A stretch of 33,371 nt of DNA from a virus: positions 1 through 33,371 of the IMG/VR virus record IMGVR_UViG_3300022602_001973; one strand, 5' to 3'. A program made the position numbers and the translations under genes. Shown one piece after another: positions 199 through 1,067 of the stretch (within the stretch, counting starts at the first letter, position 1; the number at the start of each line of letters is the position of its first letter). Below the pieces are notes generated by a model. The model searched no databases. It saw nothing but the letters and a program-made list of their open reading frames with translations, and was not told the DNA's origin.

Positions 199-399
199 AT
201 GATAACAGTAAATTATAACGAAGTAGAAGTAGAGTTTGAAACTCTAACCCAGGCAATGGATTGGGCAAAGGTAATAGGCAAGTTCGTTACTATTCGAGTG
301 AATGGTATGGAACTTGTAGGTGTGTTTGGTTCAGACACAATCAAAGACGGTATGTGCCCAGATGGTGTCGCATACGATTGGAAAAAGAGGAGACCGTAA
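199..399 (+). CDS. Small hypothetical protein, 66 aa, leaderless start
   Basis: I do not recognise this protein. It is 66 residues with an acidic, beta-prone N-terminal half, a central GKFVTIRVNGMEL segment and a basic end (KKRRP). The ATG lies at the predicted +1 of the promoter at 164-192, so the mRNA is probably leaderless. The only other in-frame ATG candidates (codon 20 and later) lack a clear Shine-Dalgarno sequence. The stop overlaps the start of the release-factor gene (TAATG), so the two are likely translationally coupled. Confidence 0.6.
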   Translation: MITVNYNEVEVEFETLTQAMDWAKVIGKFVTIRVNGMELVGVFGSDTIKDGMCPDGVAYDWKKRRP

Positions 400-1067
400 T
401 GAAACGAACGATTGAGATTAGGGCCGCAGAAGGCGGCGATGATAGTAAACTATTTGCTAAAGATCTAGCAGAAGCATATCGCAGATTTGCCCAAAGCATG
501 GGATGAACTACCCGCCTGATAAATGAATATCTTGGCGAAGTTCATATACTTGTCGAGGGTACTGATTTATCCGGCTTAGAAAACGAAAGCGGAGGGCATC
601 GCATACAGCGAGTTCCTCCTACCGAACGCAAGGGTCGTGTTCATACCAGCACCGTAACTGTAGCAATCATAGATGAAAGCGCACCAACGATAAAGGTGGC
701 GGATGCTGATCTTAAAATAGAATGGTATTCAGGTACAGGTGCAGGTGGACAGCACCGCAACAAGCACCAAAACTCTTGCCGGATAACTCACATTCCTAGT
801 GGCATCTTAGCCACAGCACAATGTCGTAGCCGGCAAAATAGTTTGGATTTAGCTAGAAAAACTATAGAAGAAAGACTTGACAATCTGGTAAAAACCAGTT
901 ATAATAATAACATAGCAAGCGATAGACGTCAACAAGTTGGTAGTGGCATGCGTGGAGATAAAATCCGAACTTATCGCTTCCAGGACGATGTTGTCAAAGA
1001 TCACTTAACAAACAAGACTGCCAGTGTTAAAAAAGTACTGGCAGGCAATTTTAATTTACTTTGGTAA
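399..1067 (+). CDS. RF1-type peptide chain release factor with in-frame UGA at codon 36
   Basis: With the in-frame TGA (504-506) read through, this is a 222-residue class-I release factor lacking the N-terminal domain 1. Visible landmarks are EIRAAEGGDDSKLFA near residues 6-20, a GGHRIQRV block, an RF1-type P-x-T decoding motif (PPT, 73-75; RF2 has SPF) and the catalytic GGQ (116-118) in a GAGGQHRNKH context. TGA codon 36 follows RRFAQSMG and aligns with the conserved Trp in RF1 (E. coli RYAEARRW; others end in GW). Frame is kept on both sides, so this is one nonsense codon and not a frameshift. Many neighbours stop at TGA, so the code is not globally changed. It is either regulated readthrough or a recent nonsense mutation. 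A GTG at 696 could restart a C-terminal GGQ fragment. A GAGG Shine-Dalgarno precedes the ATG. Known family role: hydrolysis of peptidyl-tRNA at UAA/UAG in the ribosomal A site. Confidence 0.85.

Follow-up and report, generated by a model that had tools for sequence, protein, structure and literature searches.

A tailed-phage RF1-like release factor gene whose synthesis appears to be gated by stop-codon readthrough

Why would a phage gene for a protein that terminates translation carry a stop codon within its own reading frame? We studied this question at a locus in a virus record of 33,371 bases, here called the window, which contains five tRNAs, a ClpP protease, a nucleotide-sugar epimerase and weak tail-fibre matches, and thus represents a fragment of a tailed phage. 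On the plus strand, positions 399–1067 form an ATG-started frame preceded by a Shine–Dalgarno-like GAGGAG at 387–392, six nucleotides before the ATG. Its translation consists of MKRTIEIRAAEGGDDSKLFAKDLAEAYRRFAQSMG, a stop, and TTRL...GGHRIQRVPPTERKGRVHTS...GTGAGGQ...NLLW before the terminal TAA, with TGA at 504–506 (codon 36) as the single internal stop. If this UGA is read as a sense codon, the product has 222 residues; if it terminates, the short open reading frame at 399–506 is expected to give a 35-residue product. A metallophosphoesterase frame at 1061–1690 overlaps the end of the gene, and in relatives the tRNA genes are dense around it, with up to 35 in 12.7 kb in one locus (L055).

We first asked what the gene encodes. 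Pfam identified the end of the PCRF domain (103–194) and the RF-1 domain, while the TIGR00019 prfA profile was covered only from position 116 to 340 of 361, at 195 bits against a full-length cut-off of 423 bits. The N-terminal domain 1 is therefore missing, and we consider the protein RF1-like rather than RF1 ("mini-RF1"). An AlphaFold2 model had modest confidence (mean pLDDT 77.6), and its best matches in the PDB were ribosome-bound RF1 (E 2.6e-18). The PxT codon-recognition motif of RF1 (UAA/UAG type) is present as PPT at 615–623, preceded by the Gln of RF1 in RIQRV and aligned with PVT of RF1, and the GGQ peptidyl-tRNA hydrolysis motif is at 744–752; PPT, this Gln and GGQ were invariant in the family sample. 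A profile of the family aligned codon 36 with the conserved Trp of solved RF1s (YAERKGW in 2fvo and 1rq0).

Two scans of viral contigs gave 80 and then 19 further distinct relatives in the window's group, the nearest of them (L002) being a separate contig with 99% identity. All 99 have TGA at codon 36 and no other internal stop. As TGG would be the obvious alternative if UGA were simply Trp, its absence shows selection for the stop itself. Both parts of the gene are under purifying selection, with dN/dS of about 0.15 before the TGA and 0.08 in codons 63–90, and ATG starts the gene in 93 of 94 cases. Chance, an assembly error or a decaying gene cannot give this pattern, and the observation is real.

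The stop is not explained by a changed genetic code. In the window, 21 of 46 gene calls end in TGA, and six large relatives of 142–364 kb end about 28–41% of their genes in TGA. None of the 1009 distinct tRNAs of all loci has the anticodon UCA. When we searched these six genomes for in-frame TGA shared by homologous frames, only one case was common to all six: this gene. Three of the six standard-code relatives carry tRNAs with the amber anticodon CUA (174391–174465 in the record of locus L014, 363408–363482 in that of L049 and 130–204 in that of L068), and 8 distinct CUA tRNAs were present among all loci.

We next looked for RNA signals around the stop. Synonymous variation falls to 0.20 in codons 37–45 against a gene mean of 0.49, and the RNA at 514–575, starting 7 nt after the UGA, folds into a long stem with arms at 514–533 and 556–575. 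RNAalifold predicted nothing for all 72 sequences together, probably because one clade uses another pairing register, but split alignments resolved this. In 52 sequences of the main group, 94% of the pair cells are standard pairs, double changes occur in 57 cells against 19.6±3.8 in shuffled data (0/500), and sliding the partner by one base leaves 45–48% paired. A divergent group has a different sequence with its own hairpin at nearly the same place. In comparison with gene versions with permuted synonymous codons, the mean folding z was –3.22 for codons 37–62, with 92% of sequences below –2, while every other window along the gene stayed above –2. A covariance model found one significant match in each of the six genomes, at this gene, and also found several remote members not used to build it; Rfam contained no such family. 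The hairpin is conserved, although its role as a stimulator is inferred.

The base following the TGA also departs from that of ordinary stops. It is A in 66, G in 26, C in 2 and U in none of 94 genes (A in the window), whereas ordinary TGA stops in the large relatives are followed by U in 172, A in 153, C in 89 and G in 88 cases; a U at this position reduces readthrough (PMC5289835). The sequences are related, however, and these counts are not independent.

To see whether the pattern extends beyond the window's group, we searched with remote members and classified the reading frames between the AEGGxD and PPT motifs. This resulted in 191 distinct genes, of which 185 carry a recoding site; eight loci could not be classified automatically. 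Of these, 124 have in-frame stops only: 106 have one UGA (94 of them at codon 36), 15 have two UGA, 2 have UGA plus UAG and 1 has UAG. The remaining 61 have a +1 shift site of RF2 type at CUU followed by UGA (44), UAG (16) or UAA (1), and 6 of the 191 genes have no site. Around the other readthrough genes, neighboring long frames mostly use TGG and hold no TGA, so these stops are not explained by a changed code either. A strong hairpin signal was detected only in the window's group: the other readthrough groups showed weak folding signals (mean z about –0.7 to –1.3) and the shift groups about none. The shift sites carry GGAGG within nine bases upstream of CUU in 33 of 61 cases, against 1.1% elsewhere in the same genes, and host RF2 genes in the same genomes show the same arrangement. 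The RF2 type of cassette thus exists in RF1-like genes, sixteen times with UAG, the codon that an RF1-type factor should read itself.

Although the family is found mostly in phages, its bacterial members include isolate genomes such as Minicystis rosea and Pyxidicoccus fallax. Myxobacterial genomes (loci L326, L327 and L329–L333) carry this kind of factor with a CUU UGA or CUU UAG shift site and, where searched, normal RF1 and RF2 as well; gene callers probably mark it as frameshifted. The full-length RF1 genes found in six of the bacterial genomes are uninterrupted.

On full-length sequences, the family forms one clade (100/98), separate from RF1, RF2 and PrfH, and joining it with PrfH was weakly rejected (p-AU 0.047). 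On the C-terminal part alone, the window's group forms a clade (98) that also holds one shift-type member. The states of readthrough, shift and none require 12 changes, and the UAG shift sites are scattered about as in shuffled labels. The gate is kept while its form changes, which is what selection for regulation would give.

The sequence-only reading of the locus had proposed an RF1-type factor with UGA at a conserved Trp codon, dependence of the full protein on UGA readthrough, and a mirror image of the RF2 autoregulatory frameshift. These proposals hold up and extend to a whole family, including literal RF2-like CUU-stop sites in RF1-like genes, although the dependence on host RF2 remains inferred. 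Its side suggestion, a relic of or a step toward code change, is not supported.

We consider it likely that programmed readthrough of UGA 36 gates the synthesis of an accessory phage release factor. In this model, the ribosome starts at ATG 399 and meets UGA in a leaky context, with the hairpin near the mRNA entrance when the UGA is in the A site. If host RF2 acts promptly, the 35-residue peptide is released; if termination is slow, a near-cognate tRNA reads the UGA and the full factor is made. The inserted residue is probably Trp, as tRNA-Trp is the UGA near-cognate (PMC3521657) and Trp is the residue of RF1. The factor should then take over UAA/UAG termination and free RF2 for UGA, closing a negative loop across factors. 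The gating stop is mostly UGA, however, which a PxT-type factor is not expected to read, and feedback of the window's factor on itself would be indirect at best. The conserved UGA, the coding on both sides, the hairpin, the standard code and the family-wide recoding sites are evident from the sequences, but most of these are metagenomic, with unknown hosts, and Trp insertion, dependence on RF2, the stop specificity of the factor and the feedback are inferred without expression data.

The main alternative is readthrough at a fixed ratio, with the UGA and hairpin simply setting a low constant amount of the factor and no sensing of RF2 or of termination capacity. All sequence evidence for readthrough fits this equally well, and 3′ RNA structures are also how viruses set fixed readthrough ratios (PMC5009743). 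We nevertheless consider it unlikely: the gene is itself a release factor, its relatives use RF2-type shift cassettes whose known role is sensing release-factor level, and a fixed low level could be had more simply with a weak ribosome-binding site.

The other explanations appear far less plausible. A general reading of UGA as Trp, or a suppressor tRNA brought by the phage, could draw on the recoding of stops in some phages, on the tRNA-Trp(CCA) genes of the large relatives and on the U11–A24 D-arm pair of the Hirsh UGA suppressor seen in 12 of 20 distinct tRNA-Trp(CCA) in the loci. The last is only a lead in the absence of a bacterial control set, and the normal use of TGA, the lack of UCA anticodons and the uniqueness of the shared TGA largely refute this explanation. 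Selenocysteine insertion would fit a UGA closely followed by a hairpin, but it appears very unlikely as the column is Trp in RF1, the apical loop varies, relatives replace the UGA by UAG or by a frameshift or have Phe, Leu or Ile at the column, and no Rfam match was found. Similarly, phage families of short RF-1-domain proteins exist (phrog_20323, phrog_3122) and a GTG-started frame is present at 696–1067, but two separate products without readthrough are highly improbable: there is no in-frame ATG between the UGA and PxT in 91 of 94 genes and no ATG, GTG or TTG in 52 of 94, and the part before the UGA encodes the conserved RF1 domain 2. A pseudogene or a sequencing error, suggested only by the internal stop, is refuted by the conservation in 99 separate contigs with purifying selection on both sides.

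Among known systems, the autoregulatory +1 frameshift of bacterial RF2 (prfB; e.g., AGGGGG-UAU-CUU-UGA-C) similarly places an early stop inside a class I release factor gene that has to be bypassed to make the factor. The cassette itself (often an SD-like GGAGG, about 3 nt, CUU, a stop and mostly C) is present in 61 relatives but not in the window, where the same frame continues through the UGA, with a 3′ hairpin; the gene is also RF1-like and accessory, the site lies in domain 2, and relatives also use UAG and UAA. The class I release factor of Mimivirus and Megavirus is made through UGA readthrough, with Trp proposed, and a frameshift, and the viral tRNA-Trp has a Hirsh-like A (PMC3521657). 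That factor is of eukaryotic/archaeal type, from an amoeba virus and not homologous to this family, and no conserved 3′ hairpin is described in the section consulted. PrfH is likewise a class I factor without domain 1, but the window protein scores far below the TIGR03072 cut-off (48 against 166.65 bits), and the PrfH genes found are uninterrupted and show no PxT motif in the sequences inspected. Huge phages are known to carry RF1- or RF2-like genes (PMC7162821), and the huge-phage records LR756502, LR745206, LR756501 and LR756504 carry members of the family; the passages found in that paper mention no recoding inside the gene, and close relatives of these genes lie among neighbors with TGG and no in-frame TGA.

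The frameshift of RF2 is a textbook feedback loop. A 2016 review states that no RF2 gene with an early same-frame UGA is known, that the UAG/RF1 counterpart is unknown, and that regulatory frameshifting for RF2 or antizyme has not been replaced by regulatory readthrough in any known organism, with one giant-virus factor noted for readthrough plus frameshift (PMC5009743). We found nothing on the present family in searches of an open-access library, although most subscription papers and preprints were outside the search and priority is not certain. It is probable, though not established, that the clade is gated almost universally by programmed recoding whose form evolution exchanges, so that each factor is made only when release-factor activity falls short; the clade would then contain both the RF1/UAG counterpart of RF2 autoregulation and the readthrough version of it. 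The pattern also suggests that large phages monitor and adjust translation termination during infection, and that gene callers will split or miss these genes.

The shift-type member inside the window's clade (L322, 8102–8765, from a Hahella MAG) has TGG at codon 36 and, a few codons on, a CUU UAG C shift site, with readthrough exchanged for frameshift. Of the 61 shift-type genes, one (L289, 3001–3673) appears to need two events, UGA readthrough at +2 and a +1 shift at CUU UAG C, as in the Mimivirus factor. Finally, a member without a gate (L297, near 3100), whose sister L313 has CTT TGA C, reads Lys-Phe-Glu in frame at that place, as if the shift site had been lost by one base.
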